Positions 20,813 through 42,291 of a stretch of DNA of 64,000 nucleotides are shown here, piece by piece. The notes under the pieces are model-generated. The model was not told where the DNA came from. It saw only the letters and a program-made list of their open reading frames with translations, and did no database searches. This DNA comes from Hyphomicrobiales bacterium (GTDB lineage Bacteria; Pseudomonadota; Alphaproteobacteria; Rhizobiales; Rhizobiaceae). The number at the start of each line of letters is the position of its first letter. Positions within the stretch are counted from its first letter, which is position 1. The stretch spans positions 1-64,000 of the forward strand of contig UEGQ01000027.1 in NCBI GenBank assembly GCA_900466005.1, in the 5' to 3' direction. The position numbers and the translations under genes were made by a program.

Positions 20813-22852
20813 TCACTCCCGGCTCCTGCGCCTCCTGCGTCCGCCGCCTTCGCCGTCGCCGTCTGCAAGCAGCTTGCGTTCGGGGAGCGTGACGGCGGCC
20901 GCGAGTTTCGGGAAGGGATCGACCTTGTTCGGCAGCGCCATGGCGTCGATGAAGAGCTGCTGGAAGTGGGGTTCGAGCGCCGTCTCAATCTTCTCGATGC
21001 GGCGAACCGTCTCCTCGATTTCGCGGCGGTGGTCGCGGTTGAGGAGCGCCATCAGCGCGCCGGTGCCTGCCGCGTTGCCGACCGCCTTGACTTCCGCGAG
21101 ATCGCAATCGGGGATGAGGCCGAGCACCATTGCGTATTTGGGATCGATGAACGAGCCGAAGGCGCCCGCGAAGCGGATGGTGTCGACGGTTTCGACGCCC
21201 TGTTTCTCCATGAGCAGCTTGATGCCGGCATAGAGTGCCGCCTTGGCGAGCTGGATGGCGCGGACGTCGTTCTGCGTGACGGTGATCTTCTGCGCGCCGT
21301 CGTGCAGAAGGTAGGAGAAGGTGCGGCCGTTTTCCAGGATGCGCGGGCTCTTCGCGGCGAGCGATCCGTCGACCACGCCGTCGGCGGAGATGACGCCGGA
21401 AAGATACATTTCGGCGACGACCTCGATGATCGCCGAGCCGCAGATGCCGGTAATCCCGGTCTTTTCCGCGGCCTCTGCAAAGCCTTCCTCGTCCGACCAC
21501 TGGTCGACGCCGATCACCTTGAAGCGGGGTTCGAGCGTTTGCGCGTCGATGCGCACGCGCTCTATAGCGCCGGGGGCGGCGCGCTGGCCGCAGGAGATTT
21601 CCGCGCCCTCGAAGGCCGGACCGGTGGGCGAGGAGGCGGCGACGGTTCGCTCTCGGTTACCGAGCACGATCTCGGCATTGGTGCCGACATCGACGAGCAG
21701 CATCATGCGGTCCTGCCGATGCGGGCCTTCCGAGAGCGTGGCGCCGGCGGCGTCCGCCCCGACATGGCCGGCGATGCAGGGGAGCAGATAGGTGCGAGCG
21801 CCAGGGTTCAGCGCAAGCTCGATGTCCTTCGCCTCGCAGGCGACGGCGCCGGAAACGGCGAGCGCGAACGGCGCCTGGCCGAGTTCGGTCGGGTCGATGC
21901 CGAGGAAGAGGTGGTGCATGATCGGATTGGCGACGAAGACGCTGTCGAGAATGTCGGAGCGCGAGACGCCGCCTTCGGCGCAGACCTTGTCGACGAGTTC
22001 GGAGACGGCCTGGCGCACCGCCCTGGTCATCGCCTCGCGCCCGTCCGGGTTCATCATCACGTAGGAGACGCGGCTCATCAGATCCTCGCCGAAGCGGATC
22101 TGCGGGTTGGAGGCGCCGGAGGAGGCGACGACGCGGCCCGACAGCAGTGAGACGAGGTGCATGGCAATGGTGGTCGAGCCGATGTCGCAGGCAAGGCCGT
22201 AGGCCTCGTTGTGCAGGCCGGGCCAGAGGGCGACGATCGTCGGGCGCGAGGTCGGGCTGTCGCGGTGGATGGCGGCGGTGACGGTCCAGTTGCCCTTGCG
22301 GAGGATCTTCTGGACTTCGGGAAGAAAATGAGGTTCCACCTGCAAATCAGTGTAACCCCAGTCTTTTTCAAGCATGACCTTCATGCGGTCGAGATCGCCG
22401 AGCGGCTTGTGCATGTCGGGTTCGTCGACCTCGACATAGCAGAGATGGACGGCAGGATTGCGTTCGATGACGCGGTCGCTGGCCGCCTTGCGCACGACCT
22501 GGGCGTTGACCACGGCATCCTGCGGCACGTCGATGACGAGGTCGCCCTCGATCGTCGCGGAGCAGGAGAGGCGGCGGCCTTCGGGGAGCGTGCGCACCTC
22601 GGCGTAGCGCTTCTCCTTCGGGCCGACGGGGGAGATGTGGTCGTTGGAGGAGACGATGCCGTGCTTGGCGAAATTGCCCTCCTGCACTTCGACCTGGCAG
22701 CGGCCGCAGGTGGCGCGTCCGCCGCAGACGCTCTCGACATAGACGCCGAGCGCGCGGGCGGCCTCCAGCACCGGCGTGCCGACGGGGAAGCGGCCGCGCT
22801 TGCCCGACGGCATGAAGAGGATGAGGGGGTCCCTGGACTGGCCTTCGCTCAT
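20813..22852 (-). CDS. Corrinoid activation protein, RACo/RamA type (ASKHA + 2Fe-2S)
   Basis: 679 residues. It would reduce inactive Co(II) corrinoid proteins back to Co(I) in an ATP-dependent step. N-terminal 2Fe-2S ferredoxin domain with Cys43, Cys49, Cys52 and Cys97; then the DUF4445/ASKHA ATPase region with GLACDIGSTTIAMHL, LLVDVGTNAEIVLGN and GPAFEGAEISCGQRA. The C-terminus is a Gly/Arg tail (EGGGRRRRRSRE). Start at 22852 is the first Met before the ferredoxin fold. It is the partner expected for the MttB system encoded 9-11 kb away, although it sits apart from it. Confidence 0.93.
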   Translation of the reverse strand: MSEGQSRDPLILFMPSGKRGRFPVGTPVLEAARALGVYVESVCGGRATCGRCQVEVQEGNFAKHGIVSSNDHISPVGPKEKRYAEVRTLPEGRRLSCSATIEGDLVIDVPQDAVVNAQVVRKAASDRVIERNPAVHLCYVEVDEPDMHKPLGDLDRMKVMLEKDWGYTDLQVEPHFLPEVQKILRKGNWTVTAAIHRDSPTSRPTIVALWPGLHNEAYGLACDIGSTTIAMHLVSLLSGRVVASSGASNPQIRFGEDLMSRVSYVMMNPDGREAMTRAVRQAVSELVDKVCAEGGVSRSDILDSVFVANPIMHHLFLGIDPTELGQAPFALAVSGAVACEAKDIELALNPGARTYLLPCIAGHVGADAAGATLSEGPHRQDRMMLLVDVGTNAEIVLGNRERTVAASSPTGPAFEGAEISCGQRAAPGAIERVRIDAQTLEPRFKVIGVDQWSDEEGFAEAAEKTGITGICGSAIIEVVAEMYLSGVISADGVVDGSLAAKSPRILENGRTFSYLLHDGAQKITVTQNDVRAIQLAKAALYAGIKLLMEKQGVETVDTIRFAGAFGSFIDPKYAMVLGLIPDCDLAEVKAVGNAAGTGALMALLNRDHRREIEETVRRIEKIETALEPHFQQLFIDAMALPNKVDPFPKLAAAVTLPERKLLADGDGEGGGRRRRRSRE

Positions 22853-23012
22853 GTCGAACTCGTCTTTCCTGTGCGAACGTCTCTGCCGGCGCGGGCCGGC
22901 CATTCTCGATAGACTGCACGGGTCCGGCGGCTGACGTCCGTCAATTTCCGACATGGAGATGCGTCCGCCGGACTTTTGCCTGCCCCTGCCCGGAGACGCA
23001 AGCGCCGAAATG

Positions 23013-23435
23013 TCAGGGCTCGTCGGAGGTGATCCAGGCGCCGATGTTGATCGTGCTCGTCAGGATGTCGAGGTAGAGGCCGGTGATGCCGAGAATGACC
23101 ACCATGGTCGCGATGACCGAGACGACGAAGACGAGCACCTCGCGCAGGTCGCTGACCGGGGCGCCGAACCACGAGCTCACATAGTCGTAGGTCATCCAGT
23201 AGATGTGCTTCATCAGGTGCAGCACGAGGAGCGCCATGCCGAGGGCGAGCGGATAGTAGAGGAAGCCGCCGCCCGTGGCTTCGCCGGCGTGGCGGAGGAT
23301 GATGGCCGAAAGCGCGGAAATGAAGATCACCCGCGAGATCAGCGCTACGTAGTCGGCGAGGTGCTTGGCGTCCTGGTAGTCGCCGTGGGCGAGGACGCGG
23401 GATTTACGGGAGAAGCGGGCAAGGGTGTCGAGCAT
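23013..23435 (-). CDS. Hypothetical integral membrane protein
   Basis: 140 residues with three or four membrane spans (~32-48, 57-75, 100-125). I recognise no family. The N-terminus (LDTLARFSRKSRVLAHGDYQDAKHLADYV) is soluble and probably cytoplasmic. It lies between the corrinoid activator and the pterin methyltransferase genes on the same strand, but a strong terminator upstream separates it from the latter, so it is probably transcribed from its own promoter or with the activator. Confidence 0.7.
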   Translation of the reverse strand: MLDTLARFSRKSRVLAHGDYQDAKHLADYVALISRVIFISALSAIILRHAGEATGGGFLYYPLALGMALLVLHLMKHIYWMTYDYVSSWFGAPVSDLREVLVFVVSVIATMVVILGITGLYLDILTSTINIGAWITSDEP

Positions 23436-23447
23436 GAAAAGGCCTGA

Positions 23448-23486
23448 TGAAAAACGGTTCGCCGCATGTTGCTGCGGCGAACCGTT
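23448..23486 (-). terminator. Strong intrinsic terminator of the pterin methyltransferase transcript
   Basis: Perfect 14-bp stem AACGGTTCGCCGCA / TGCGGCGAACCGTT with a 6-nt loop; on the minus strand it is followed by TTTTTC. It lies ~150 bp beyond the methyltransferase stop and 13 bp before the next gene's start. Confidence 0.85.
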
Positions 23487-23520
23487 CCGTCAAGGGGGCG
23501 TGCGTCGAGGCGCAATATTG

Positions 23521-23561
23521 CCCCTCACCCTAGCCCTCTCCCCGCACGCGGGGCGAGGGGA
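23521..23561. repeat. Short palindromic element
   Basis: CCCCTCACCCTAGCCCTC followed by the hairpin CCCCGCACGCGGGG. It has the constant box of the modular repeats without a variable stem, and lies between the methyltransferase gene and its terminator. Confidence 0.55.
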
Positions 23562-23635
23562 CGCCGCTTTATCTCTTGTCCGTCAGGACGACTTCCCCTT
23601 CCTGCCGCGGAGAAGAGGCCGTCAGTCGTGCCGGT

Positions 23636-24604
23636 TCACTCCGTCGCGGCACCCGCGCCGACGCGGGCGGCACGGCCGCCGCGGCGTCCGCCGCCGGTAG
23701 AGGCCGCAGCCGGAGCCGGGGCGGCTGCTGCGCCGCCGTCGGCGGGCTTGTAGTCGCGGTAGGTCTTGATCCAGTTGTAGCAGTTCTCGTCGGTGCCGTT
23801 CAGCACGTTGGCGGCGCGCACGGCCTCCATTTCCTGCGGGCGGCAGGGGTTCATGATCGCCGACGTCATGCCGGCGCCGATGACCATCGGGATGAAGCCG
23901 GCATTGATGCCGTGGCGGTGCGGCAGGCCGAAGGAGATGTTGGAGAGGCCGCAGGTCGTGTTGACCTTCAGCTCTTCGCGCAGACGCCGGACGAGGGCGA
24001 AGACCTGGAGGCCTGCCGAGCCGACGGCGCCGATCGGCATGACCAGCGGGTCGACGACGATGTCGCAGGGCTTGATGCCGTAGTCTGCGGCGCGCTCGAC
24101 GATCTTCTTGGCGACGGCGAAGCGGACGTCCGGATCCTGCGAAATGCCGGTCTCGTCGTTGGAGATCGCGACGACCGGCACGTTGTACTTGGCGCAGAGC
24201 GGCAGGATCGCTTCGAGCTTCTCTTCCTCACCGGTGACGGAGTTGATGAGCGGCCGGCCCTTGGCGACCTTGAGTGCGGCCTCGATGGCGGCGGTCACGG
24301 AACTGTCGATCGAGAGCGGCACGTCGACGAGGCCCTGGACGATCTCCATGGTCTTGACGAGGAGGCCCGGCTCCGTCTCGTTCGGGTTGACGGAGGTGAC
24401 GCCGGCATTGACGTCGAGCATGGTGGCGCCGGCGGCGACCTGTTCCAGCGCGTCCTTGATGACGGTGTCGAAGTTGCCTTCCATCATCTCGGCGGCGAGC
24501 TTCTTGCGGCCGGTGGGATTGATGCGTTCGCCGATGACGCAGAACGGCTGGTCGAAGCCGATGATGATTTCGCGGGTGGCGGACGCGACGATGGTGCGGG
24601 TCAT
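23636..24604 (-). CDS. Pterin-binding methyltransferase (methylcorrinoid:THF type, MtgA/MtrH/AcsE-like)
   Basis: 322 residues, one dihydropteroate-synthase-like TIM barrel. It should transfer the methyl group between a corrinoid protein and tetrahydrofolate. Typical pterin-barrel segments: VIGERINPTGRKKLAAEM at the start, TMLDVNAGV, PLSIDSS, PLINSVTGE, VAISNDETG and CGLSNISFGLP, where the Asn and Asp residues contact the pterin. The last ~33 residues are a low-complexity tail containing GGGRRGGRAAR. No homocysteine or B12 domain is attached, unlike MetH. It is the expected second methyltransferase after MttB. MetF-like and MetV-like genes lie just upstream on the same strand. Confidence 0.92.
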   Translation of the reverse strand: MTRTIVASATREIIIGFDQPFCVIGERINPTGRKKLAAEMMEGNFDTVIKDALEQVAAGATMLDVNAGVTSVNPNETEPGLLVKTMEIVQGLVDVPLSIDSSVTAAIEAALKVAKGRPLINSVTGEEEKLEAILPLCAKYNVPVVAISNDETGISQDPDVRFAVAKKIVERAADYGIKPCDIVVDPLVMPIGAVGSAGLQVFALVRRLREELKVNTTCGLSNISFGLPHRHGINAGFIPMVIGAGMTSAIMNPCRPQEMEAVRAANVLNGTDENCYNWIKTYRDYKPADGGAAAAPAPAAASTGGGRRGGRAARVGAGAATE

Positions 24605-24705
24605 TTCATTCCTCCGGTCGGATGCGCGGGAGAGCAGTCTAGCGCGCGGTCAATGGGTTCAAAAGACGGTTGCCGGCGCGAACGTCGCGCCGGCTTTCGA
24701 TCTGG

Positions 24706-25797
24706 TCAATGGGGATGCTGGGCGGCGATGCCGGCGAGTCGCTGCTGGTCCTCGACCTTTTCCTCGCGGATCGCCTCCAGCCGCTCGGCGACGAGCGCGT
24801 CGACCGGGTTCGGTTCGCGCTTCCAGGGCCTGCGACCCTTCAGCACGCCGGATTCGTGGACGATCTCGGCGACATATTCCTCCTGGCGGTAGGCCATCAC
24901 GTGGATGCCGGAGACGCCTGCGACCTCCTTCACCTCGTTGATGATGTCGATGCAGAGCTGCTTGCCTTCCTTCTTCTGGTCCTGAGCTCCTTCGAGGCGG
25001 GCGATGACGTGGTCCGGGATATGCACGCCCGGCACGTTGGAGCGGATCCACTTGGCGGTCCTGGCCGACGCCAGCGGACCGACGCCGACGAGGATGAAGC
25101 ATTTTTCATCGAGGCCGAGATCGCGGACCTTCTGCATGTAGTCCTTCAGCATCGGCACGTCGTAGCAATACTGGCTCTGCACGAACTGGGCGCCGGCGGC
25201 GATCTTCTTCGCCAGCCGATACGGGCGGAAGTCGTAAGGCGGCGCGAACGGATTGATCGCGGCGCCGAGGAAGACCTGCGGCGGCGTCGTGAGCTTGCGC
25301 CCGGAGAGGAACTTCGCCTCGTCGCGCATGGTGCGCACGGTTTCCAGGAGCGACATGGAATCGAGGTCGAAGACGGGCTTGGCGCCCGGCTGGTCGCCGG
25401 CCTGCACGCCGTCGCCGGTGAGGCACAGGATGTTCTGCACGCCCATGGCGGAAGCGCCGAGGACGTCGCCCTGGATGGCGATGCGGTTCTTGTCGCGGCA
25501 GGCGATCTGCATGATCGGCGCGTAGCCCATGCGGGTCAGAAGGGCGCAGATGCCGACCGACGACATGTGGCAGTTGGCGCCCGACGCATCGACGGCGTTG
25601 ATGCCGTCCACCCAGCCGTCGAAGATCGCCGCGCGTTCGTAGACGTCGTGCGGATTGGCGCTGTCGGGCGGGTTCAGTTCGGCGGTGACGGCGAATTCGC
25701 CGCGCCGCAAAATGCGCTCGAGGCGGCCGCGGGAGGAATGGCCGGGCAGCGGGTCGAGCGGCAGGCCGGGATCGACGGGATTGATGTCGGGGCTCAT
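24706..25797 (-). CDS. Methylenetetrahydrofolate reductase-like protein (MetF family)
   Basis: 363 residues, FAD-dependent TIM barrel of the MTHFR family. Features are FAVTAELNPPDSANPH at the first strand (the Glu corresponds to the catalytic acid region), CLTGDGVQAGDQPGAKPVFDLDS as the flavin loop, GAAINPF, and the AGAQFVQSQYCYDV strand. In this setting it probably runs methyl-THF toward methylene-THF rather than feeding methionine synthesis. Its ATG overlaps the stop of the MetV-like gene by 4 bp, so the two are coupled; pairing with a MetV-type Cys-rich subunit is known in anaerobes. Confidence 0.92.
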   Translation of the reverse strand: MSPDINPVDPGLPLDPLPGHSSRGRLERILRRGEFAVTAELNPPDSANPHDVYERAAIFDGWVDGINAVDASGANCHMSSVGICALLTRMGYAPIMQIACRDKNRIAIQGDVLGASAMGVQNILCLTGDGVQAGDQPGAKPVFDLDSMSLLETVRTMRDEAKFLSGRKLTTPPQVFLGAAINPFAPPYDFRPYRLAKKIAAGAQFVQSQYCYDVPMLKDYMQKVRDLGLDEKCFILVGVGPLASARTAKWIRSNVPGVHIPDHVIARLEGAQDQKKEGKQLCIDIINEVKEVAGVSGIHVMAYRQEEYVAEIVHESGVLKGRRPWKREPNPVDALVAERLEAIREEKVEDQQRLAGIAAQHPH

Positions 25798-26378
25798 GCG
25801 CTTTCCCCCTTCTTGGCGTTTTCACGGGCGGCGGCGGCTTCGGCGGTCACCCGCAGCCAGGACGAGGTTTCGCGCAGCGACTGGTTCACCGGCTTCTGCA
25901 CCTTGAGGATCGCGTCGCCATTGACCATGTTGCGGGAGCCGGCCCAGGCCTGCACCCAGACGCATGGCATGTCGGGCTCGACCTCACAGTGGCCGTTGGC
26001 GCGAACGCCGCCGCAAGGGCCGTTCCGGAGCTGCTTCGGGCAGTTCATCGGGCAGGACATGCCGGTCGAGGAAAGCACGCACTGGCCGCACATGCGACAG
26101 TCAAAGAGGAGACCCTTGACGTTGCGCTCGACGAAGGTCACCGGACGCTCGACGCGGCCGTAACCGATGCGGTTCCAGACCGGATGCAGCCACAGGAAGG
26201 CGTTGGCGAAGCGGCCGTAGAACCATTCGAGAAAGCGCGAGTGGCGCACCGACCACAGACGGATGGTGTAGGAACGGCGGGCGCGGCGGTTCGGAGAGAC
26301 CGCCGCGGGCGTATAGGCTCCCGTCGCCGCCTTCTTGGCCGGCGCCGCATTGCCGGGGCCGGGTTTGCCGTCAACCAT
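25794..26378 (-). CDS. MetV-like Cys-rich MTHFR partner subunit
   Basis: 194 residues, matching the 'methylenetetrahydrofolate reductase C-terminal' (MetV-like) family. The cysteine core at ~100-145 (CRMCGQCVLSSTGMSCPMNCP, CGGVRANGHCEVEPDMPCVW) could bind an Fe-S cluster or zinc. The first ~40 residues are basic and low complexity (PNRRARRSY). ATG at 26378 is chosen for its GGAGG site 7 nt upstream; the longer open frame is noise. It overlaps the upstream PF13769-type gene by 8 bp and metF-like by 4 bp, a tight three-gene unit. MetV recruits or stabilises MetF in acetogens. Confidence 0.9.
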   Translation of the reverse strand: MVDGKPGPGNAAPAKKAATGAYTPAAVSPNRRARRSYTIRLWSVRHSRFLEWFYGRFANAFLWLHPVWNRIGYGRVERPVTFVERNVKGLLFDCRMCGQCVLSSTGMSCPMNCPKQLRNGPCGGVRANGHCEVEPDMPCVWVQAWAGSRNMVNGDAILKVQKPVNQSLRETSSWLRVTAEAAAARENAKKGESA

Positions 26379-26673
26379 TCTCACGTCCTCCCTTCTGGAC
26401 GAGCGCGACGAGCCGCGCCTTGTCATATGCCTCTTCGATCGCGGCTGCGGCCTTGTCGGCCTCGGCTTCGAGATCGTCGGAGACCGGCACGGGATCGCCC
26501 TTGCGCCACTCGGCGAGATAATCGTCGGTTTCGGCGGCGCCGGTGCGCATCGCGCACATGTCGATCGCCTCGGTGAAGCGCAGCGACAGCTCACGTTTTG
26601 CCGTCTTCCTGCCTTGCTTGACGATCACCTGGGCGGGGATGTCGCGCCAATAGACGATGATGCGGTCTGCCAT
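26371..26673 (-). CDS. Small conserved protein ('virulence factor' family, PF13769-like)
   Basis: 100 residues from the ATG at 26673, which has an AAGGAG site. The family starts with the pattern seen here, RIIVYWRDIPAQVIVKQGR, and is annotated only by an old 'virulence factor' label; no biochemical role is known to me. It is the first gene of the overlapping unit with the MetV-like and MetF-like genes, so a function in methyl-THF oxidation or in protecting that complex is plausible. The promoter region just upstream carries GCGAC repeats shared with mttB and the GbdR-like gene. Confidence 0.82.
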   Translation of the reverse strand: MADRIIVYWRDIPAQVIVKQGRKTAKRELSLRFTEAIDMCAMRTGAAETDDYLAEWRKGDPVPVSDDLEAEADKAAAAIEEAYDKARLVALVQKGGRENG

Positions 26674-26730
26674 GCCTTTTCGGTCTCCTTTGTCGCCACA
26701 TTGCACGGCCCCCGTGCGGCGGACTGCGCT

Positions 26731-26767
26731 TGCGACGACGTCGCACAGAGCAAAAAGCGACGTCGCG
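26731..26767 (-). promoter_or_regulatory. GCGAC operator upstream of the PF13769-metV-metF unit
   Basis: Contains TGCGACGACGTCGCA (26731-26745) and AGCGACGTCGCG (26756-26767). On the minus strand GCGAC units are 22 bp apart. The same AAAGCGAC element occurs at 14085-14142 and 32097-32125. It lies 58-94 bp upstream of the first start codon. Confidence 0.5.
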
Positions 26768-26805
26768 GAGAATTCCTGCATCTGTGCTCCCGGTCGACCG
26801 GGAAT

Positions 26806-27597
26806 CTACCAGATGCCGCGGGTGAGGCCGTAACGCAACCAGGTCCAGAGGGGCGGCGGAAAACGCAAATGCGACGGCCCTTCGGCGGGCCTCGGCCGCA
26901 GGCGGCCGTGCACGGCATCCTCGACAGCCTGCTCTACGATCTCCAGCGAGGCGATGGTGAGCGTCAGCGGATAGGTGCCGATGAAATCGCCGGGCTCCGG
27001 GCGGGTGCGGACTTCGTAGAGCGTGCCGCCGGTGTCGGTGCCGGCGTCGACCAGGTGCACGGTGGCGCCGAAATTGCCGTCGTCTCGAAGCGCCAGAGAC
27101 CAGTAGCCGCCCATCTGACCGCGATAGGCGGGGTTTATGCCGGCGTGGAGGTTGAGGACCGGGCAGGGAAGTCTCTCGAGCGCCGTCCGGGTCATCAGTC
27201 GGGTGCTGACGAGCAGGATCACGGCGGGTCGAAGCTCCCGGACGAGGTCGGCGCATTGCGGGTCGTTGATCGAGGCGACCCGGCTCACCGGCACGCGTTC
27301 CGGCATGACCGGATCGACGTTGCGATTGCGGCAGGTCTCGGCGGTGCGACGGGCGGCGAGCGGACGGAGAAGGCGCCCGGCCATCATGGTCGCAAGCTGC
27401 CCTAGAGCGTTCGGCCAGCCGAAGCGTCGTGCACGCCGGCGAGTGATCTCGAGCTTCGATTCCGGGTCTTCGAGAATGACGTGGAGATTTCGCCAACGCG
27501 CCGCAAGCGCATTGATGACGACGGCGGGATTGGGACCGCCGGCGGTCATCACCACCACGCGGGCGTCGTCGTCACTTACCGGCGGATACGTGGTCAT
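26806..27597 (-). CDS. Formyltransferase-fold protein
   Basis: 263 residues with the formyl-transferase core: a Rossmann-like start (ARVVVMTAGG), the N-x-H motif in CPVLNLHAGINPAYRG and a later Asp in HLVDAGTDTGGTL, which match the Asn-His-Asp catalytic set of GART/FMT enzymes. Such proteins move a formyl group from 10-formyl-THF, or use formyl groups in sugar modification. The acceptor cannot be read from the sequence. The position next to folate one-carbon genes may be meaningful, but it is 132 bp upstream of them and has an ExoD gene behind it. ATG at 27597 fits the family length. Confidence 0.82.
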   Translation of the reverse strand: MTTYPPVSDDDARVVVMTAGGPNPAVVINALAARWRNLHVILEDPESKLEITRRRARRFGWPNALGQLATMMAGRLLRPLAARRTAETCRNRNVDPVMPERVPVSRVASINDPQCADLVRELRPAVILLVSTRLMTRTALERLPCPVLNLHAGINPAYRGQMGGYWSLALRDDGNFGATVHLVDAGTDTGGTLYEVRTRPEPGDFIGTYPLTLTIASLEIVEQAVEDAVHGRLRPRPAEGPSHLRFPPPLWTWLRYGLTRGIW

Positions 27598-27634
27598 TCG
27601 GGGGAACTCGCTGGACGGGACCGCACGGGCTGGC

Positions 27635-28312
27635 TCAGAAGACGAGGGCGAGTATAGCACCCGCCGTGAGGACGACAAAGCCGGCGAGCAGCAGGGCGAT
27701 GATGCCGACGAGGCAGCCGACCAGCACGCCGAGGCCGTCGCGTTCGGAGTGAGCAAAGCCGATGATCGCCAGCGCGAAGGCGGGCGGCCAGTTGCCGAGC
27801 GGAATCGGCAGGATCACCACGAGCGCGAGAAGCAGGACGTAGAGTCCGAGAATGCGTTCGGAGAAGCGGCTGCCGAGAAACCAGTGTCGCGGCCTGAACA
27901 GCCGTTCTGCAACACGCAGCGAAGGCACCAGCTTCTCGACGATCTTTTCGAAAGTGGAGCTGCTGAAACCGTAGTCGCCGAGCCAGCGCGGGAGAACGAC
28001 GCGGCCGTGGGGCGAGGCGATCATCTGCCAGGCGACGACGGCGAGCGGCAGGCCGAGCACGAGCGTCGCGCCCGGTGGTGCCGGCACCAGATTGGGAAGC
28101 GCGAAGATCAGGAGAAAGGCGCCGAAGGAGCGGTCCTGAAGCGCGATCGCGATGTCGCGAACGGTGGTACGCTCATGCGGCGCCTGCGCCAGACGCTCCA
28201 GCAGCACCGAAAGGTGCTCGCCCGGCCTGCCTCCTCCATTGTGGTCGAAAGCTGCCGCCACCGGTTCCACTCCGTCCGTCGTTCGCTCCGTTACCTTCTC
28301 CATGAAAACCAT
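27635..28312 (-). CDS. exoD: ExoD-family membrane protein
   Basis: 225 residues with four to five membrane spans. N-terminal LSVLLERLAQAPHERTTVRDI and the long hydrophobic hairpin around FALPNLVPAPPGATLVLGLPL are characteristic of ExoD, first described in Sinorhizobium as affecting exopolysaccharide production and nodule invasion. The molecular function is unresolved. Its stop lies 37 bp before the formyltransferase start, so the two may be co-transcribed. Confidence 0.9.
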   Translation of the reverse strand: MVFMEKVTERTTDGVEPVAAAFDHNGGGRPGEHLSVLLERLAQAPHERTTVRDIAIALQDRSFGAFLLIFALPNLVPAPPGATLVLGLPLAVVAWQMIASPHGRVVLPRWLGDYGFSSSTFEKIVEKLVPSLRVAERLFRPRHWFLGSRFSERILGLYVLLLALVVILPIPLGNWPPAFALAIIGFAHSERDGLGVLVGCLVGIIALLLAGFVVLTAGAILALVF

Positions 28313-28533
28313 CGTGCACGGAAAATGTTGCGGCTGAATTAAGGCGGGCTCGCCGAACCACGCGGATTCACGGCCGCATTTGCGGGCTTTCCTGCAACTT
28401 TACGGCGGCCGTCTCCGCCACAGAAACAACCAGAATCATCGATAGGATTATATTCCTTCGACGCTGAAAAGCACTCCGAAGGCGAGGAAACGGCTCCGGC
28501 GGGAATGGCCGGGCGAACACAAGGAGACGTCAA

Positions 28534-29904: not shown

Positions 29905-30059
29905 GGCCGGTACAGCCGGCGCCGGGGGCGAGGAAACCCGCCTCCGGACCGGCATCAGGGCGCGACCATCCTCATGCAAGACCCTGCCTTGCTTTTACCC
30001 AAAGCCGGTGCCATGGAGCTCTCGCATTTCCGTTGGAACAAGAGGAGAGGTTAACCCCC

Positions 30060-30218: not shown

Positions 30219-30250
30219 TCCATCCCTGAGGTAGAGCCGGTAAACGGCCT

Positions 30251-33856: not shown

Positions 33857-33889
33857 AGGCATCCCGAAGCCAGGGAGCAAGGCGGAGCG

Positions 33890-33958
33890 GTGGCGGTGGC
33901 CGACATGATCCAGGAGGAGGTCTGGCGTCCGCATTACAAGTTCGAGGGGCCGCGGTGA
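33890..33958 (+). CDS. Micro-ORF coupled to the downstream Fe-S gene
   Basis: GTG start, 22 codons, ending ...HYKFEGPR. Its TGA overlaps the GTG of the next gene in the sequence GTGA, a typical translational-coupling junction. It has purine-rich ribosome sites in front (GGGAGCAAGGCGGAG). An internal ATG at 33905 is an alternative start. It may be a regulatory leader or a small protein; it could also be chance. Confidence 0.35.
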   Translation: MAVADMIQEEVWRPHYKFEGPR

Positions 33959-34644: not shown

Positions 34645-34728
34645 CCGGCTTCCAACGCGAGGGCAAGTGCGGCATAAGTCCCGACACCGGACTGTTCACG
34701 TCAAGCGGCTTGCGCAGACAGGATATCG

Positions 34729-35523
34729 ATGAGAATTCAGCGGGTTTTCGCAAGGCGCTTCGTCGCCGCAATCATGCTGGCGGCAGCGACCGCGTGCCTA
34801 TCCGGCCCGGCGATGGCCGCCTGCCGCGACCTCGTCGTCGAGAATGGCGGGTACACGGTCTGCAGCTTCGATCCGAAGACGGAAGAGATCCGCGTCTACC
34901 ACAGCGATCCCGCGGGCAGGCCGTTTTCCGGCTTCGATGCGCTGGTGCGGCAGCTCTGGGAGGAGCGGCACTATCTCGTCTTCGGGACCAATGGCGGCAT
35001 GTACCACGACGACCTCTCGCCGGTCGGGCTCTTCGTCGAATACGGGGTTGAGCGCCGGCCGATCAGCACGAAGGCCGGATGGGGCAATTTCCACCTGCTG
35101 CCGAACGGGGTGTTTTCGGTAACGGACGGTAAGGCGGCAATCACCGAAAGCCTGCGCTATGCCCGCCGGCGTCCAGAGGCCGACTATGCGACGCAGTCGG
35201 GCCCGATGCTGGTGATCGACGGCGCGCTGCACCCGAAATTCCTGCCCGACAGCGACAGCTTCAAGATCCGCAACGGCGTCGGCGTCGACAGGGACGGCAA
35301 GGTCCATTTCGTCATCTCGAACACGCCGGTTCGTTTTTACGATTTCGCCCGCCTCTTCCGCGACACGCTCGGCTGCCCGAACGCGCTCTATCTCGACGGG
35401 ACGATTTCGAGCGCCTACATCCCCGAGCGCGGGCGGCGGGACCGGCTGTTTCCGCTCGGCCCCATCATCGCGGTGATCGGCACCGTGCCGCAACGGAGCT
35501 CCGGCAGCGGGCGGACGCCCTGA
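34729..35523 (+). CDS. Exported phosphodiester glycosidase family (DUF2233/NAGPA) protein
   Basis: 264 residues. Cleavable signal peptide (~1-30, ending GPAMA). The NAGPA-type domain has the motif FGTNGGMYHDDLSPVGLFVE, later QSGPMLVIDG and ALYLDGTISSAYIP, which are typical of this family. Relatives include human uncovering enzyme (phosphodiester alpha-GlcNAcase) and bacterial proteins acting on envelope glycans. The bacterial substrate is unknown. Confidence 0.88.
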   Translation: MRIQRVFARRFVAAIMLAAATACLSGPAMAACRDLVVENGGYTVCSFDPKTEEIRVYHSDPAGRPFSGFDALVRQLWEERHYLVFGTNGGMYHDDLSPVGLFVEYGVERRPISTKAGWGNFHLLPNGVFSVTDGKAAITESLRYARRRPEADYATQSGPMLVIDGALHPKFLPDSDSFKIRNGVGVDRDGKVHFVISNTPVRFYDFARLFRDTLGCPNALYLDGTISSAYIPERGRRDRLFPLGPIIAVIGTVPQRSSGSGRTP

Positions 35524-35536
35524 GCACCGGTTCCTC

Positions 35537-35890
35537 TCAGACAGACGACTTCGGATAGGCGCGCTCGAGGCCGCCGGAGCGCTCCAGGCCGGTGCGGAAG
35601 GCCCGGTAGGCGGGGTGCTGGCCGGATTTCGCGGCTTCCGAAAGCCGGATCTGCAGCCGGGCGGGTGCGGTGTTGCCGAGCCATTCGCCGCAGCGTTCGA
35701 GTTTCAGCGAATTGAGGAAGGGCGCGGCCGCGGCGCGGTCGATATAGAGATGCAGGCCTTCGAGCAGGCTTTCGTCCTGGGCGGGGTTCTCGAAGAGGAG
35801 CTTCAGGAAGGCCTGGTCGGCATCGGCAAGTGTCGCGAGCTTGTCGGCGACGGTTTCGCGGTCGGGGAAGGGGAGCGATTGCGCGGACAT
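35537..35890 (-). CDS. Hypothetical protein
   Basis: 117 residues from the ATG at 35890 (GAGGG site upstream). Mostly helical, no signal peptide, no recognised family. The N-terminus (LPFPDRETVADKLATLADADQAFLKLLFENPAQDE) is amphipathic. It is 114 bp downstream of the bmt stop, on the same strand, so it could be the last gene of the ABC-bmt transcript. Confidence 0.6.
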   Translation of the reverse strand: MSAQSLPFPDRETVADKLATLADADQAFLKLLFENPAQDESLLEGLHLYIDRAAAAPFLNSLKLERCGEWLGNTAPARLQIRLSEAAKSGQHPAYRAFRTGLERSGGLERAYPKSSV

Positions 35891-36004
35891 GACGTGTTCC
35901 CTCGTCTTTTGATTCGGCTGTCTTTTCACCCGGATAGGACAGCCGGGCCGGCGACGCAAGCGCGGGTGGCGGCCGCCCGGCCAGGGGCCGGGCAGTCGAT
36001 TCGA

Positions 36005-37024
36005 TCAGCCGCGACGGCGACCGCGACGCTCGCGGCCGGCATCGCCCGAGGATTCCTCGGCGGTCTTGTTGCGCAGCGGGCCGATGTGCTCGACGATGGC
36101 CTCGATCGTCGGGCGGGGCCCCGGGGTATAGTTGTCGAGCGCCTGCCGCATGGCGGCGAGGTGGCCGCAGGAGGTGCCGCAGCATCCGCCGATGATCTTC
36201 GCACCGGCGTCGCGGGCGAGCTTGGCATATTCGGCCATCAGCGGCGGCGTGCCGGAATAGTGGATCTCGGCGCCGCGATATTCCGGAATGCCGCAATTGC
36301 CCTTGACGATCACGGTGGCGGCGGGATCGGCCGACGTCATGTCGAGCAGGCTCGCCAGGATGTCGGAGGCGCCGACGCCGCAATTGGCGCCGACGGCGAC
36401 CGGACCGTCGCCGATGTCCTTCGCGACACCGTGGATGTCCTTCGGCGCAAGCCCCATCATCGTCTTGCCGGCGGTATCGAAGGAGCCGGTATAGGTGTAG
36501 GGCAGGCCGACCTTGACGGCGGCTTCGGCCGCGGCACGGATCTCCTCGGGCGAGGACATGGTCTCGATCCAGGCGATGTCGACGCCGCCGGCCTTCAGGC
36601 CCTCCATCTGCTCGACGAAGGCGGCGACGGCATCCTCGTAGGTGAGCGCGCCGAGCGGCTGCAGGAGCTCGCCCGTCGGGCCGACGGATCCGGCGACGAT
36701 GACCTTGCGCGGCGCCTTGTCGGCGACGGAGCGGGCGATCTCGGCGGCCTTCCGGTTGAGTTCGAAGACGCGATCGTCCGCCTTGTGCAGCTTCAGCCGG
36801 TGACGGGTGCCGCCGAACGAATTGGTGAGGATGATGTCGGCGCCGGCATCGACGAAATCCTGGTGAAGCTTGACGATCCGCTCCGGGTGGCTCTCGTTCC
36901 AGAGTTCTGGCGCCTCTCCGGCTTCGAGCCCCATGGCGAACAGGTTCGTGCCGGTCGCGCCGTCGGCGAGCAGGACGCCCTTTTCTGCAAGCAATCTGGA
37001 AAGCGGATCGGAAGCGGTGGCCAT
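36005..37024 (-). CDS. bmt: Betaine/other methyl donor:homocysteine S-methyltransferase (Bmt-like)
   Basis: 339 residues, homocysteine methyltransferase TIM barrel. Zinc ligands are visible in VAVGANCGVG and GGCCGTS; ADGATGTNLF and NSFGGTRHRL are family motifs. It should methylate homocysteine to methionine, with glycine betaine the likely donor in rhizobia, where a related bmt gene is known. Adjacent betaine-type ABC transporter genes, and the one-carbon island around it, agree. The last ~13 residues are an Arg-rich tail (RERRGRRRG), as in other proteins of the island. S-methylmethionine as donor cannot be excluded. Confidence 0.85.
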   Translation of the reverse strand: MATASDPLSRLLAEKGVLLADGATGTNLFAMGLEAGEAPELWNESHPERIVKLHQDFVDAGADIILTNSFGGTRHRLKLHKADDRVFELNRKAAEIARSVADKAPRKVIVAGSVGPTGELLQPLGALTYEDAVAAFVEQMEGLKAGGVDIAWIETMSSPEEIRAAAEAAVKVGLPYTYTGSFDTAGKTMMGLAPKDIHGVAKDIGDGPVAVGANCGVGASDILASLLDMTSADPAATVIVKGNCGIPEYRGAEIHYSGTPPLMAEYAKLARDAGAKIIGGCCGTSCGHLAAMRQALDNYTPGPRPTIEAIVEHIGPLRNKTAEESSGDAGRERRGRRRG

Positions 37025-37114
37025 GGGTCGTCCCCTCTAAGAAATCTGTCGGTCAACCCATAGAGAATGCCGGCCTGCGCCGCAACGGGATTTGCCGCCT
37101 GCGTCTCGCGCGGC

Positions 37115-38158
37115 TCAATCCGCGGCGGGCGGTGCGGCGACCGGCGTGACGATGGCCGCGAGGATGGTCGTGATGTCGACGGAACCGACGGTCGCGCCGT
37201 CCGCATCGATGACCGCGGCGGTGGATCGGCCGGCGCCGGTCATGGCGCGGGCGGCGTCTTCGAGACGGGTCGAGGCGGGCAGGGCGAGATCCCGCGACGT
37301 GCCGTCGACGGGCTGCATGACGGTGCCGAGTTCGATCACCCGTCCGCGGTTCACCTGCCGGACGAAGGCGGCAACATGATCGTCGGCCGGATCGAGGACG
37401 ATCTCCTCACCGCTTCCCTGCTGCACGATCTCGCCATCGCGCAGGATGACGATGCGGTCGCCGAGCGCCAGCGCCTCGTCGAGGTCGTGGGTGATGAAGA
37501 CGATGGTCTTCTTCAGCTCCGCCTGCAGGTCGAGGAGCATCGAGCGCATGTCGACCCGGATCAGCGGGTCGAGGGCGGAGAAGGCCTCGTCCATCAGCAG
37601 GATATCGGCGTCGGTGGCGAGCGCGCGGGCAATGCCGACGCGTTGCTGCATGCCGCCGGAGAGCTGGTTCGGGTAGTGATCCTCGTATCCGGAAAGACCG
37701 ACACGGACGATCCAGCGAGCGGCGCGGCGTGCGCCTTCCCGGCGGGGAACGCCCTGGACCTTCAGGCCGTAGAGCGTGTTTTCAAGGACGGTGCGGTGGG
37801 GCAGCAGCGCAAAGTTCTGGAAGACCATCGCGGTGCGGTGGCGGCGGAACTCGCGAAGCTCGGCTGCGCTCATGCGGCAGACGTCGACGCCGTCGCAGAG
37901 GATCTCGCCCGCGGTCGGTTCGATCAGCCGGTTGATGTGGCGGATCAGCGTCGACTTGCCCGAGCCGGAAAGGCCCATGACGACGGTCACCCTTCCGGCC
38001 GGAATCGTCATGTCGATGTCCTTGAGGCCGAGGACATGGCCGTAGCGGGTGTTGAGGTCGGCCTTGGAAAGGCCGGCCTTCACCGCTTCGACATAGCGCT
38101 CGCCATGCGGACCGAAGATCTTGTAGAGGCCGCGGATCTCGATCCGGCCCTCAGCCAT
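37115..38158 (-). CDS. proV: Glycine/proline betaine-type ABC transporter ATP-binding protein
   Basis: 347 residues of the ProV/OpuAA/ChoV family: Walker A GLSGSGKST, signature LSGGMQQRVG, Walker B ADILLMDEAFSALDP, and a C-terminal CBS-type sensor region (~270-345). Such importers take up quaternary amines such as glycine betaine or choline. The start overlaps the permease gene stop by 8 bp, and bmt follows 90 bp later on the same strand, so substrate import and methyl-group use seem to be coupled. Confidence 0.92.
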   Translation of the reverse strand: MAEGRIEIRGLYKIFGPHGERYVEAVKAGLSKADLNTRYGHVLGLKDIDMTIPAGRVTVVMGLSGSGKSTLIRHINRLIEPTAGEILCDGVDVCRMSAAELREFRRHRTAMVFQNFALLPHRTVLENTLYGLKVQGVPRREGARRAARWIVRVGLSGYEDHYPNQLSGGMQQRVGIARALATDADILLMDEAFSALDPLIRVDMRSMLLDLQAELKKTIVFITHDLDEALALGDRIVILRDGEIVQQGSGEEIVLDPADDHVAAFVRQVNRGRVIELGTVMQPVDGTSRDLALPASTRLEDAARAMTGAGRSTAAVIDADGATVGSVDITTILAAIVTPVAAPPAAD

Positions 38159-39065
38159 GGACGACCTCCAGGTGGCGCTGCAGGCGCTTGCCGTAGGACT
38201 GGCTCGCCCGGTCGAAGACGACGGCGATCGCCACCAGCGCGAAGCCGTTCAGGAAGCCGATGGTGAAGAACTGGTTGGTGATCGCCTGAAGGACGTTGCG
38301 GCCGAGCCCGCCGACGCCGATCATCGAGGCGACCACGACCATGGCGAGCGCCATCATGATCGTCTGGTTGACACCGGCCATGATGGTCGGGAGCGCAAGC
38401 GGCAGCTGGACGTCGAAGAGCTTGTGGCGGACGGAGGAGCCGAAGGCGTCGGCCGCCTCGATGACCTCGCGGTCGACGAGGCGGATGCCGAGATTGGTGA
38501 GGCGGATCATCGGCGGCACGGCGTAGACGACGACGGCGATCAGGCCCGGCACCTTGCCGATGCCGAAGATCATCACCACGGGGATGAGATAGACGAAGCT
38601 CGGCAGCGTCTGCATGACGTCGAGGACGGGGATCACCGCCGCCTGCAGCCGGTCGGAGCGGGAAAGCGCGATGCCGAGCGGAATGCCGACGGCGACGGAG
38701 ACGGCCGTGCAGACGGTGACCATGGCGAGCGTCACCATGGTATCCTCCCAGAGCCCGAGGAGGCCGATCGCGACCAGTGCGGCAAGCGCCCCCAATGTGA
38801 TGCGGACATCGCGGCCGACCGCCTGCACGAGCGCGGCGACGAGGAGGAGGACGAGCGGCCACGGCGCGTCGACGAAGAGCTCTTCGAGGCCGTTCAGGAG
38901 CCATTGCAGGGGCTCCGTCGCCCTGTCGATCGCATCGCCATAGGTGCGCACGAAGGTCTTGAAGGCGGCGTCGACCGCTTTGCGGACATTCCGCAACAGA
39001 TCCTCGTCGAGGGCGGGGAAACGGCAGGCGAGTTCGGGCAGGGCGGCGCAGATGCCGGAAGCCAT
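38151..39065 (-). CDS. proW: Glycine/proline betaine-type ABC transporter permease
   Basis: 304 residues with six membrane spans and the permease EAA-like loop (EAADAFGSSVRHKLFDVQLPLALPTIMAG). The cytoplasmic N-terminal ~65 residues precede the first span, as in ProW. ATG at 39065 is preferred (AAGGA site); the longer frame is noise. It is 103 bp downstream of the binding-protein gene. Confidence 0.92.
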   Translation of the reverse strand: MASGICAALPELACRFPALDEDLLRNVRKAVDAAFKTFVRTYGDAIDRATEPLQWLLNGLEELFVDAPWPLVLLLVAALVQAVGRDVRITLGALAALVAIGLLGLWEDTMVTLAMVTVCTAVSVAVGIPLGIALSRSDRLQAAVIPVLDVMQTLPSFVYLIPVVMIFGIGKVPGLIAVVVYAVPPMIRLTNLGIRLVDREVIEAADAFGSSVRHKLFDVQLPLALPTIMAGVNQTIMMALAMVVVASMIGVGGLGRNVLQAITNQFFTIGFLNGFALVAIAVVFDRASQSYGKRLQRHLEVVHG

Positions 39066-39168
39066 GTCTCGTGTTCCTTTCGGGATACCGGCGAGAAAGG
39101 TCGATACGGGCGGACGAAGGCCGGCGGAAGCCGGCCGCGCGTCGAACGGCGCGGCCGTGGGCGGTGGC

Positions 39169-40167
39169 TCAGAGCGATTCCTTGACCTTTGCCGCGACGT
39201 CGGCAGGCACCCAGGTGGTCCAGAGGTCGGGATATTCCTTGAGGAAGTGCTCGGCCGCCTCTTCGTTGTCCGCCTGGTTCTCGTCCATCCATGCAAGCAC
39301 GGCGCCGACCGTCTGGTTGTCCCACTTTCGGGCCTTCACATAGTCCATCGCGACCCCCGCCTTTTCGGCGAAGGCCTTGGTGACCACCGTGAAGACGCCG
39401 GCGACCGGATAGGAATTGACCTTCGGGTCCGGGCAGTCGGCGGTGCCGGTGCAGCGGTCCCATTCGGCCTTGTCGTGCTCGACGCCGAAGCTCAGCTTCA
39501 CCATCTCGTACTTGCCGAGGATCGCCGTCGGCGCCCAGTAGTAGCCGAGCCAGCCAGTCTTCTTCTCGAAGGCGTTGGCGATCGAGCCGTCGAGGCCGGC
39601 GGCCGAGCCGGTGTCGACGAGCTCGAAGCCCTTGTCCTTGGCGCCGACCGCCTTGAAGAGGTTGGCGGTGGAAATCTGGCAGCTCCAGCCCGAAGGGCAG
39701 TTGTGGATCGCGCCCTTCGACGGATCCTCCGGCGCGGGGAACAGCTCCGGGTGTGCCAGCGCCGCCTCGACCGACTTGATGTCGGGATTGGCGTCGGCGA
39801 GGAATTTCGGGATCCACCAGCCTTCGACGCCGCCGTCGCTGAGGATCGGCGCGGCCTGGATCAGCCGGCCCTCTTTCACGGCGGCATCCATCGCCGCGCG
39901 CACGGAGTTGACCCAGAGTTCCGGCGCCATATCCGGCTCGCCCTTCTCGTTCATCGAGGCGAAGGTCGGAACGGTGTCGCCGGTGACGAGCGTCACGTTG
40001 CAGCCGTAGCCTTTCTCGAGGATGATCCCGTCGACATGAGCGGCGACGCCGGCCGAAGCCCAGTTCATTTCGGCAATCGAGACATCGCCGCATTCGGCGG
40101 CGCCGGCGGTCCCCGCGACGGACAAAAGCCCGCCGGCAAGGAGCGCGGCAGCGAGAAATTTCATCAT
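39169..40167 (-). CDS. proX: Glycine/proline betaine-type ABC transporter substrate-binding protein
   Basis: 332 residues, type II periplasmic binding protein of the OpuAC/ProX family. Signal peptide MMKFLAAALLAGGLLSVAGTAGA. Trp- and Tyr-rich segments (EMNWASAGVAAH, GVEGWWIPKF, WLGYYWAPTAILG) can form the aromatic cage typical for quaternary ammonium ligands. Cys pairs (CPSGWSC, CTGTADC) suggest disulphides. It heads the ABC-bmt cluster. The exact ligand (betaine, choline or other) is not decided by sequence. Confidence 0.9.
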   Translation of the reverse strand: MMKFLAAALLAGGLLSVAGTAGAAECGDVSIAEMNWASAGVAAHVDGIILEKGYGCNVTLVTGDTVPTFASMNEKGEPDMAPELWVNSVRAAMDAAVKEGRLIQAAPILSDGGVEGWWIPKFLADANPDIKSVEAALAHPELFPAPEDPSKGAIHNCPSGWSCQISTANLFKAVGAKDKGFELVDTGSAAGLDGSIANAFEKKTGWLGYYWAPTAILGKYEMVKLSFGVEHDKAEWDRCTGTADCPDPKVNSYPVAGVFTVVTKAFAEKAGVAMDYVKARKWDNQTVGAVLAWMDENQADNEEAAEHFLKEYPDLWTTWVPADVAAKVKESL

Positions 40168-40449
40168 GTCTTCGGACCTCCTGGTCTCGTGGTTCCCTTG
40201 TCTTCTTCTTTCGACGGCTTCCGCCGCCCGCAATGCGTTCAGTCGCATTCGCCCATACGACAGATTTGCCGCGCCATTGTGACGGCGCGCCCGACGACGG
40301 GACGCGCGATGCGAGGAGACGCTCGGCATCGGCACAGATGCGGGACCTATCCCTCCGAGGCCTCGATGAAAAAGGTATCCTGTCCACTGGAGAAATCAAC
40401 CTTCGAACTTTCAGGTTGCGTTAACAGATGATTTCACGCGACTGAAAAT

Positions 40450-40708
40450 AAATGCTTTTTACTATGTTTGAATTCGCGTTTACGCGACAAGGATCATCGG
40501 CGCGAAAATGTGGACAAGCCGATACAGGTAAACCATCCGGTAATAATGTCCGGCTATGGCTGTCGGCGCGGTCTTTCGCCGTCAGCGTCTCCGGCTCAGG
40601 TGTTTTGCGTACCGGAGACGCCGAAAGCCCGGGCCTCCATGGCCGGACTTCGGGGTGATCCGACGGGATGCACCAATCGTGCCGCCGTCAGGGCGGCTTT
40701 TCTTTTTC
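40450..40708 (+). ncRNA. Putative structured RNA / leader upstream of cobQ
   Basis: In the 669-bp gap between the binding-protein gene (minus) and cobQ (plus) there is no protein gene, but strong RNA structure: a perfect 10-bp hairpin GCGTCTCCGG / CCGGAGACGC (40585-40594 with 40612-40621, 17-nt loop), smaller pairings such as GGCC-TCCAT-GGCC, and an intrinsic terminator at 40681-40708. The 5' end is a guess. No B12-box of the usual cobalamin riboswitch is recognisable. It is either an independent sRNA or a terminating leader of cobQ, which starts 128 bp beyond the terminator. Confidence 0.5.
40681..40708 (+). terminator. Intrinsic terminator ahead of cobQ
   Basis: GCCGCC-GTCAG-GGCGGC stem followed by TTTTCTTTTTC, a textbook Rho-independent terminator on the plus strand, 128 bp before the cobQ start. 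Confidence 0.85.
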
Positions 40709-40836
40709 CGAACGAAAGCGAAGACGAACGTCCGTCCGGGCCGAGAGGCCTTGCGGCGCGGCTGAGATTTCGGCAGGAGAGAAGCGGCGATCGGCCCGCG
40801 GGCTGCAGCGCGGGTGCGAAGTCGGGAGAACGGGCA

Positions 40837-42291
40837 GTGGCGAAGGCGGTGATGTTGCAGGGGACCGGCTCCGACGTCGGCAAGACCGTGCTGGTCGCCG
40901 GCCTCTGCCGGCTCGCCGCCAATCGCGGCCTCACGGTGCGGCCCTTCAAGCCGCAGAACATGTCGAACAATGCGGCGGTCGCCGACGACGGCGGCGAGAT
41001 CGGCCGGGCGCAATGGCTGCAGGCGCTCGCCGCGCGCACCCCGTCTTCGGTGCACATGAACCCGGTGCTGCTGAAGCCGCAATCCGACACCGGCAGCCAG
41101 ATCATCCTGCAGGGGCGGGTGTTCGGGCAGGCGAAGGGCAGGGACTATCAGCGGCTGAAGCCGCAACTGCTTTCCGCCGTGCTCGAAAGCTACGAAAAGG
41201 TGCGCGACGGCGCGGATCTGGTGATCGTCGAGGGTGCCGGTTCGCCGGCCGAGATCAATCTCCGGGCCGGAGACATCGCCAACATGGGTTTCGCGACCCG
41301 GGCGAAGGTCCCGGTCGTGCTCGTCGGCGACATCGACCGCGGCGGCGTCATCGCCTCGCTCGTCGGAACGCACGCCATCCTGCCGCCCGAGGACCGGGCG
41401 ATGATCACCGGCTACATCATCAACAAGTTCCGCGGCGACGTCTCGCTGTTTGCCGACGGGATCACCGCCGTCGAAGGCTTTACCGGCTGGCCGTGCTTCG
41501 GCGTCGTGCCTTTCCTCAAGGCGGCCTCCCGGTTGCCGGCCGAGGATTCGGTCGTTCTGGAGCGGCTTGCCGGCGGCAGCCGGGCGGCGCTCAAGGTCGC
41601 GGTGCCGATGCTCTCGCGTATCGCCAATTTCGACGATCTCGACCCGCTTGCCGCCGAACCGCAAGTGGAACTGGTCTTCGTGCGTGCCGGCGAACGCATT
41701 CCCGCCGATGCCGGCCTCGTCGTTCTGCCGGGATCGAAGTCGACGATCGGCGATCTCGAAGATCTGCGGGCGCAGGGCTGGGATAGTGACATCGCCGCGC
41801 ATGTGCGCCGCGGCGGCCGCGTGATCGGCATTTGCGGCGGCTACCAGATGCTGGGGACGAGTGTCGCCGATCCCTTGGGGATCGAGGGAGCGAAGGAGCG
41901 GATCGACGGGCTCGGCCTCCTCGACGTTGAGACGGTGATGGCGCCGGAAAAGACCGTCCGCAACAGCACTGCGCATTCGGTGGACTACGACGTCCCGCTC
42001 ACCGGCTACGAAATTCACATGGGCCGCACCGAGGGGCCGGATTGCGCCCGCCCGCCGGTCACGATCGACGGACGCGCCGACGGCGCAAGCTCGCCGGACG
42101 GGCGTGTCATCGGCACCTACCTGCATGGGCTGTTCGGCAGCGACGCCTATCGCAAGCGGTTGCTGGCGAGCTTCGGGATCGAGGGGGGCGGCGAGAACTA
42201 CCGGGCCGGCGTCGAGGCGGCGCTCGACGACGTCGCCGCCGAGCTGGAGCGGGTGCTGTCACGGGACTGGCTGGACCGCCTGCTCGGGTAA
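40837..42291 (+). CDS. cobQ: Cobyric acid synthase
   Basis: 484 residues. It amidates adenosylcobyrinic a,c-diamide at four side chains with glutamine and ATP in cobalamin synthesis. N-terminal dethiobiotin-synthetase-like ATPase (LQGTGSDVGKTVLVAGL) and C-terminal class I amidotransferase with nucleophile Cys in VIGICGGYQMLG and the His in YLHGLFGS. GTG start at 40837 with GGAGA 8 nt upstream; the longer upstream frame runs through the terminator and is not credible. It supplies the cofactor used by the corrinoid protein nearby. Confidence 0.96.
   Translation: MAKAVMLQGTGSDVGKTVLVAGLCRLAANRGLTVRPFKPQNMSNNAAVADDGGEIGRAQWLQALAARTPSSVHMNPVLLKPQSDTGSQIILQGRVFGQAKGRDYQRLKPQLLSAVLESYEKVRDGADLVIVEGAGSPAEINLRAGDIANMGFATRAKVPVVLVGDIDRGGVIASLVGTHAILPPEDRAMITGYIINKFRGDVSLFADGITAVEGFTGWPCFGVVPFLKAASRLPAEDSVVLERLAGGSRAALKVAVPMLSRIANFDDLDPLAAEPQVELVFVRAGERIPADAGLVVLPGSKSTIGDLEDLRAQGWDSDIAAHVRRGGRVIGICGGYQMLGTSVADPLGIEGAKERIDGLGLLDVETVMAPEKTVRNSTAHSVDYDVPLTGYEIHMGRTEGPDCARPPVTIDGRADGASSPDGRVIGTYLHGLFGSDAYRKRLLASFGIEGGGENYRAGVEAALDDVAAELERVLSRDWLDRLLG

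Follow-up and report, generated by a model that had tools for sequence, protein, structure and literature searches.

Corrinoid-dependent removal of methyl groups from glycine betaine has been described in an aerobe, Ruegeria pomeroyi, where Mausz et al. (2025) reported the Mtg system (MtgB, MtgC, MtgD and MtgE with RamA/RACo, DUF1638 and MetF2) to act both as a demethylase of glycine betaine and as a split methionine synthase (PMC12478193). The dual role of MtgC and MtgD was shown genetically in that bacterium, together with proteomics, and according to the same paper the mtg genes of Sinorhizobium meliloti lie together (PMC12478193). Price et al. (2018) described a split methionine synthase in Phaeobacter inhibens, with phenotypes for a RamA-like protein and for DUF1638; the latter is tied to corrinoid reactivation by phenotype, and its discoverers propose no specific function for it (PMC5764234). 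Non-pyrrolysine enzymes of the MttB superfamily also work with a corrinoid protein and a methyl-tetrahydrofolate (methyl-THF) transferase in MtgABC of Desulfitobacterium hafniense and in the MttB-type systems of acetogens, according to PMC12478193, and the acetogen methylene-THF reductase MetVF pairs MetF with MetV (PMC8760232 and PMC8515935). Here we describe a locus at positions 20813–42291 of a 64,000-nucleotide stretch of contig UEGQ01000027.1 (assembly GCA_900466005.1, Hyphomicrobiales), hereafter the window. Judged by gene content, conservation, co-occurrence and predicted fold, it very probably represents the aerobic Mtg system in the form found in Rhizobiaceae. The pathway is already known; the locus adds three linked and under-described parts, namely a PF13769 protein, MetV, and a 229-residue open reading frame (ORF).

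The genome that holds the window amounts to 5.01 Mb in 42 contigs. Gene coordinates are window positions, and parts were identified from gene calls combined with Pfam and NCBIfam profile scans. The gene set is that of the Mtg loci of R. pomeroyi and S. meliloti. MtgB, the MttB-superfamily enzyme (32285–33856, + strand; PF06253, 784 bits), starts at 32285 or at an internal alternative, 32399. It has a terminal stop only, with no in-frame UAG, and carries leucine opposite residue X of the trimethylamine methyltransferase 7xcl, which we take to be the pyrrolysine site; a pyrrolysine enzyme was ruled out on these two grounds. The corrinoid protein MtgC (31298–31999, −) has B12-binding domains (PF02310 and PF02607, both over cut-off) and the DxHxxG motif in the form DIHDIG at residue 112. 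The methyl-THF:corrinoid (pterin) methyltransferase MtgD (23636–24604, −) scored 397 bits against NF005719 (cut-off 259), and the homocysteine S-methyltransferase module MtgE, annotated as Bmt (36005–37024, −), scored 577 bits against NF005718 (cut-off 338). They are accompanied by a RACo/RamA-type ATP-dependent corrinoid reductive activator (20813–22852, −; PF14574 at 300 bits, PF17651, PF17650 and Fer2), with an N-terminus of 2Fe-2S type (C43, C49 and C52), and by a DUF1638 protein (30251–30922, −; PF07796, 87 bits). As in P. inhibens, the three modules of MetH are found on separate genes, together with RamA-like and DUF1638 reactivation proteins. A preliminary description of the window had named MttB, the corrinoid protein, RACo, the pterin methyltransferase, MetF, MetV, a betaine importer, Bmt and CobQ, all of which were recovered here at the same positions; DUF1638, PF13769, a formyltransferase-like ORF and the 229-residue ORF were not on its list. 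It had also presented a complete route from a quaternary amine to methylene-THF as surprising in an aerobe. A route to methyl- and methylene-THF is supported by the parts and their co-occurrence, but the same system has been published for aerobic R. pomeroyi (PMC12478193) with the gene set seen here, so the aerobic setting is no new surprise.

Conservation was assessed in the best 80 of 374 matching loci, some on contigs that stop before all genes are visible. Nearly all of them carry a Rhizobiaceae or Hyphomicrobiales title, the exceptions being one titled Arenimonas (L015) and one titled Rhodobacteraceae (L026). MetV and MtgD were found in 80 of the 80 loci, PF13769 in 79, RACo in 76, DUF1638 and MtgC in 72 each, and MttB in 70. 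MtgD lies 500 bases or less from MetF2 in every locus, and DUF1638 occurs together with MtgC in 72 of 72. Gene order is kept in two blocks, RACo-MtgD-MetF2-MetV-PF13769 and DUF1638-MtgC-MttB, and the earlier wording of a dispersed pathway is therefore overstated. The best named loci matching the MetF gene belong to Rhizobium terricola (92%), followed by Ciceribacter and Rhizobium species, although the nearest records may have been excluded; the label rhizobium-like, previously given from the letters, is thus correct. In a class-level sample of 142 genomes, about one per family, MttB and RACo were each present in 30, DUF1638 in 25, PF13769 in 26, MetV in 12 and the 229-residue ORF in 30. MttB was paired with RACo in 28 genomes, with DUF1638 in 24, with PF13769 in 26, with MetV in 11 and with the 229-residue ORF in 21. 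Fisher tests gave p values from 7e-8 to 5e-25 for these five pairs, uncorrected for shared descent, though its effect is limited by sampling at the family level. Absence of co-occurrence among relatives had been named in advance as an outcome that would count against the pathway, and the joint presence of MttB and RACo in 28 of the 142 genomes therefore removes that objection.

The methylene-THF reductase MetF2, a proposed methyl-THF oxidase (24706–25797, −; PF02219, 113 bits), overlaps by 4 bases the gene for MetV, a MetV-like cysteine-rich partner of the DUF5981 type (25794–26378, −; PF12225, 95 bits, eight cysteines). A MetF with an adjacent MetV-like protein recalls acetogen MetVF; unlike that enzyme, the pair stands here among demethylation genes in a genome of rhizobium-like type, and it therefore probably runs in the oxidative direction. 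An electron exit through iron–sulfur clusters would make methyl-THF oxidation easier than with NAD+. Outside the window's own genome, MetF2 adjoins MetV in 13 of the 13 over-cut-off places read; MetV is linked to one MetF type. Measured between BLAST match ends, the distance from MetV to MetF2 is 50 bases or less in only 45 of the 80 loci, yet MetV was found in all of them, and the distances in the remainder are taken as artefacts of measuring from match ends instead of gene ends. Four other alphaproteobacterial genomes of the class sample that lack MetV (G022, G057, G082 and G109; loci L170, L175, L181 and L165) encode a divergent protein of about 300 residues between PF13769 and MtgD, in the place of MetF2 and MetV, so that this position seems to be filled by either of two solutions to methyl-THF oxidation. 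Two of the four proteins match MTHFR weakly, at 35 and 38 bits; the other two have no Pfam match.

Overlapping metV by 8 bases is the gene for a 100-residue PF13769 protein (26371–26673, −; 88 bits), a proposed accessory part for which the family name, 'Virulence_fact', is misleading. Every residue specified in its WRDIPxQ motif is invariant except R, which is present in 23 of 25 sequences; the structure model, at a pLDDT (predicted local distance difference test score) of 60, was too weak and was not used. All 26 class genomes with PF13769 have both MttB and RACo, and the family is missing from all 60 genomes with MetH but without MttB and from all 52 with neither. Four genomes have MttB without PF13769: G064, G071 and G127, at 68–82% completeness, and G077, where MttB is fragmented. 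Loci were read in 24 of the 26 genomes, excluding the window's own and a fragment (G007), and in 22 of them PF13769 lies about 1 kb or less from DUF1638 or MtgD, the exceptions being L174 and L184, the latter lying on a contig of 4.8 kb. Across a phylum-level sample of 398 genomes, with the two lists compared by eye, PF13769 occurred in 41 and DUF1638 in 57, all 41 falling within the 57. Beyond the class, DUF1638 occurs in 16 genomes, of which only one has PF13769; the latter is therefore mainly an alphaproteobacterial addition.

Directly after mttB lies the 229-residue ORF (33955–34644, +), which has no Pfam or NCBIfam match. Its predicted fold is of the type shared by CblC/MMACHC, QueG and the reductive dehalogenase RdhA, resembling the B12 proteins CblC/MMACHC and QueG at Foldseek TM-scores of up to about 0.55, with 14–19% identity in the structure rows to CblC/MMACHC, QueG and reductive dehalogenases. 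It differs from all of these in being only 229 residues long and in lacking a family match. Sequence comparison did not place it in their families: QueG was reached at E 0.27, and a profile made from the ORF's alignment returned mostly generic ferredoxin-type chains, with QueG at E 1.3, so that the assignment to a B12 fold rests on structure prediction. Eight conserved cysteines likely hold two 4Fe-4S clusters. Of the 62 loci that extend far enough to show it, 60 have the ORF 1 kb or less from MttB, and the ORF was found in 21 of the 30 class genomes with MttB as against 8 of the 60 with MetH only. For the six clear homologs in genomes lacking MttB (other than that in G125), the ten neighbouring proteins that were scanned proved to be housekeeping, miscellaneous or without match, and the protein is therefore not exclusive to the system. 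We propose that it may act as a corrinoid reductase or chaperone. A term search of the main text of PMC12478193 turned up no mention of MetV, DUF5981, ferredoxin, QueG or virulence, and among the titles and beginnings of abstracts listed from the open-licence literature, none ties PF13769 or a CblC-like protein to the Mtg system.

These observations raise the possibility, put forward tentatively, that aerobic systems carry their own compact iron–sulfur relative of human CblC and QueG, which would reduce or dealkylate the corrinoid and load or reactivate MtgC, and which with PF13769 and MetV would form an undescribed accessory set aiding the Co(I) cycle in air. PF13769, MetV and the 229-residue ORF could instead be neighbours kept by shared descent and not working parts, an account to which we give some, though limited, credence. 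The unrelated gene NAGPA is likewise a conserved neighbour, in 56 of the 80 loci; the 229-residue ORF is missing from 9 of the 30 MttB genomes and matched in 9 genomes without MttB, and no mtg gene stands near it in 16 of 20 sample loci read. Common ancestry accounts less readily for the presence of PF13769 in 26 of 30 genomes with MttB against 0 of 112 without, where each family is represented by about one genome, for its position at most about 1 kb from DUF1638 or MtgD in 22 of the 24 loci read, or for the 229-residue ORF adjoining mtg genes in four lineages outside the family. Some features also weigh against assigning the locus to the Mtg system. Against their best-matching NCBIfam models, MtgC scored 210 bits (NF047996, cut-off 370), RACo 383 bits (cut-off 800) and MttB 282 bits (cut-off 525), and it is in this MtgC score, well under the NCBIfam MtgC cut-offs, as well as in their anaerobic setting, that the locus departs from the systems of D. 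hafniense and the acetogens. The genes are spread over several units on both strands, an ORF inside the RACo-MtgD run (23013–23435) occurs in none of the 80 relatives and was left out as a system part, MttB homologs vary in substrate, and, given a MetH elsewhere in the genome, the role in methionine synthesis may be minor.

That MetH is full-length (1769 bits), so that a split enzyme is unneeded for methionine, and in this the genome differs from R. pomeroyi, which lacks MetH, and from P. inhibens, which also lacks it and is described in PMC5764234 for methionine synthesis rather than betaine demethylation. It is improbable that the locus chiefly serves as a split methionine synthase (MtgC, MtgD and MtgE with reactivation) for which MttB is a minor methyl donor. 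MtgE, MtgD and MtgC do match MetH model positions (3–325, 319–595 and 627–841, respectively), and P. inhibens needs these genes for methionine (PMC5764234). MetH over the cut-off is, however, found in only 11 of 30 class genomes with MttB against 60 of 112 without (G064, with a 987-bit fragment, being scored as lacking), so that the window belongs to the smaller group, in which methionine can be made independently of the split enzyme. Catabolism is likewise indicated by the betaine importer and by genes of dimethylglycine- and sarcosine-oxidation type: soxA (1452 bits), soxB (726 bits) and three dimethylglycine-dehydrogenase-like genes with DAO, FAO_M and GCV_T domains, two of which adjoin a choline/betaine-type permease. 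The product of demethylation would therefore be usable and, together with the full MetH, these genes make a catabolic role the best fit. The preliminary description had also made Bmt a side exit, that is, a stand-alone betaine:homocysteine methyltransferase, the view of Barra et al. (2006) as cited in PMC12478193. This we consider doubtful. The NCBIfam equivalog name, at 577 bits, speaks for it, and so does a 2025 report that P. inhibens Bmt made methionine from betaine and dimethylsulfoniopropionate in vitro, although enzyme and donor were both present at 200 uM in that assay (PMC12366255). Among solved structures, however, the protein is nearer to the homocysteine domain of MetH (140 bits to 1q7m, a MetH-type methyl-THF homocysteine methyltransferase) than to BHMT (55 bits to 1lt7), and a MetH-type fragment is its best solved match; it matches at 82% in an S. 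meliloti locus (L048), and Mausz et al. (2025) state that the S. meliloti-type Bmt is without residues for binding betaine and reassign it as MtgE (PMC12478193). We therefore lean towards MtgE as the better name, with direct use of betaine kept open by the in-vitro report. Proline betaine, carnitine or choline could be the quaternary amine that MttB uses, which seems possible but less likely than glycine betaine. Rhizobia meet proline betaine on plants. Homologs of MttB in Eubacterium take different substrates (PMC12478193). Set against this, the top solved match of the enzyme, 4yyc (991 bits), is a putative trimethylamine methyltransferase by title only, and it is followed by 2qne, a putative methyltransferase, and by the glycine betaine methyltransferase 9yce (426 bits; E 1.4e-126, far ahead of the trimethylamine enzyme 7xcl at E 1.7e-38). 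MttB is also single in the genome and has a betaine-type importer close by.

This ProVWX-type importer (37115–40167, −) consists of a ProV-type ATPase (37115–38158, −; TIGR01186, 350 bits, over cut-off), a ProW-type permease (38151–39065, −; PF00528, 90 bits; TIGR03416, 258 bits, under the cut-off of 363) and an OpuAC-type substrate-binding protein (39169–40167, −; PF04069, 202 bits). CobQ cobyric acid synthase (40837–42291, +; NF001989, 624 bits) represents cofactor supply and is not specific to the system. The exoD (PF06055) and beta-helix (TIGR03808) genes said to lie between the parts were confirmed by family scans. Both were left out as parts, being unevenly conserved (19 and 1 of the 80 loci) and not found in the 52 stretches searched, as was a weak formyltransferase-like ORF with a possible link to C1 metabolism (26806–27597, −; PF00551, 41 bits; 58 of 80, and likewise not found in the 52 stretches). 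The entericidin genes of the preliminary description correspond to two similar 52-residue ORFs (30060–30218 and 30921–31079, +) that by eye have a lipobox-like, lipoprotein-like start but have no Pfam match; they lie on either side of DUF1638, on the other strand, and many of the 80 loci also have them. Adjoining the RACo gene is that of a protein of 833 residues, autotransporter-like by eye (18245–20746, +), present in two of the 80 loci (L008 and L010). Two further adjoining ORFs (43390–46875 and 47277–50750, −) encode 1161 and 1157 residues, the first of which, by eye, looks like a fusion of polysaccharide deacetylase and family-2 glycosyltransferase. A search of the window for a B12 riboswitch or other RNA with Rfam at gathering level returned only one tRNA. 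Terminator and promoter scans of 22700–42400 found 9 terminators (11.2 in shuffles) and 4 promoters (1.8 in shuffles) and were not used as evidence.

Taken as an Mtg system, the locus could work as follows; what we infer is the substrate, the direction of MetF2-MetV, the clusters and what PF13769 and the CblC/QueG-like protein do. A quaternary amine, of which glycine betaine is the likeliest, would enter through the importer, and MtgB would transfer one methyl group to Co(I) of MtgC, yielding dimethylglycine. MtgD would pass the methyl group from MtgC to THF, and MetF2 with MetV would oxidise methyl-THF to methylene-THF, the electrons leaving via iron–sulfur clusters. In reverse, MtgD, MtgC and MtgE would form a split methionine synthase. 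Corrinoid oxidised to Co(II) would be brought back to Co(I) by RACo, with ATP, and by DUF1638; PF13769 and the CblC/QueG-like protein may be extra cofactor-handling parts.

Rhizobia encounter betaines from plants, and B12-dependent methyl removal under aerobic conditions therefore bears on their carbon, nitrogen and methionine economy. The new element is the candidate accessory set and not the pathway itself. Within that set, PF13769 and the CblC/QueG-like protein stand out as specific candidates for the upkeep of Co(I) corrinoid and the loading of B12 onto methyltransferases in aerobes.

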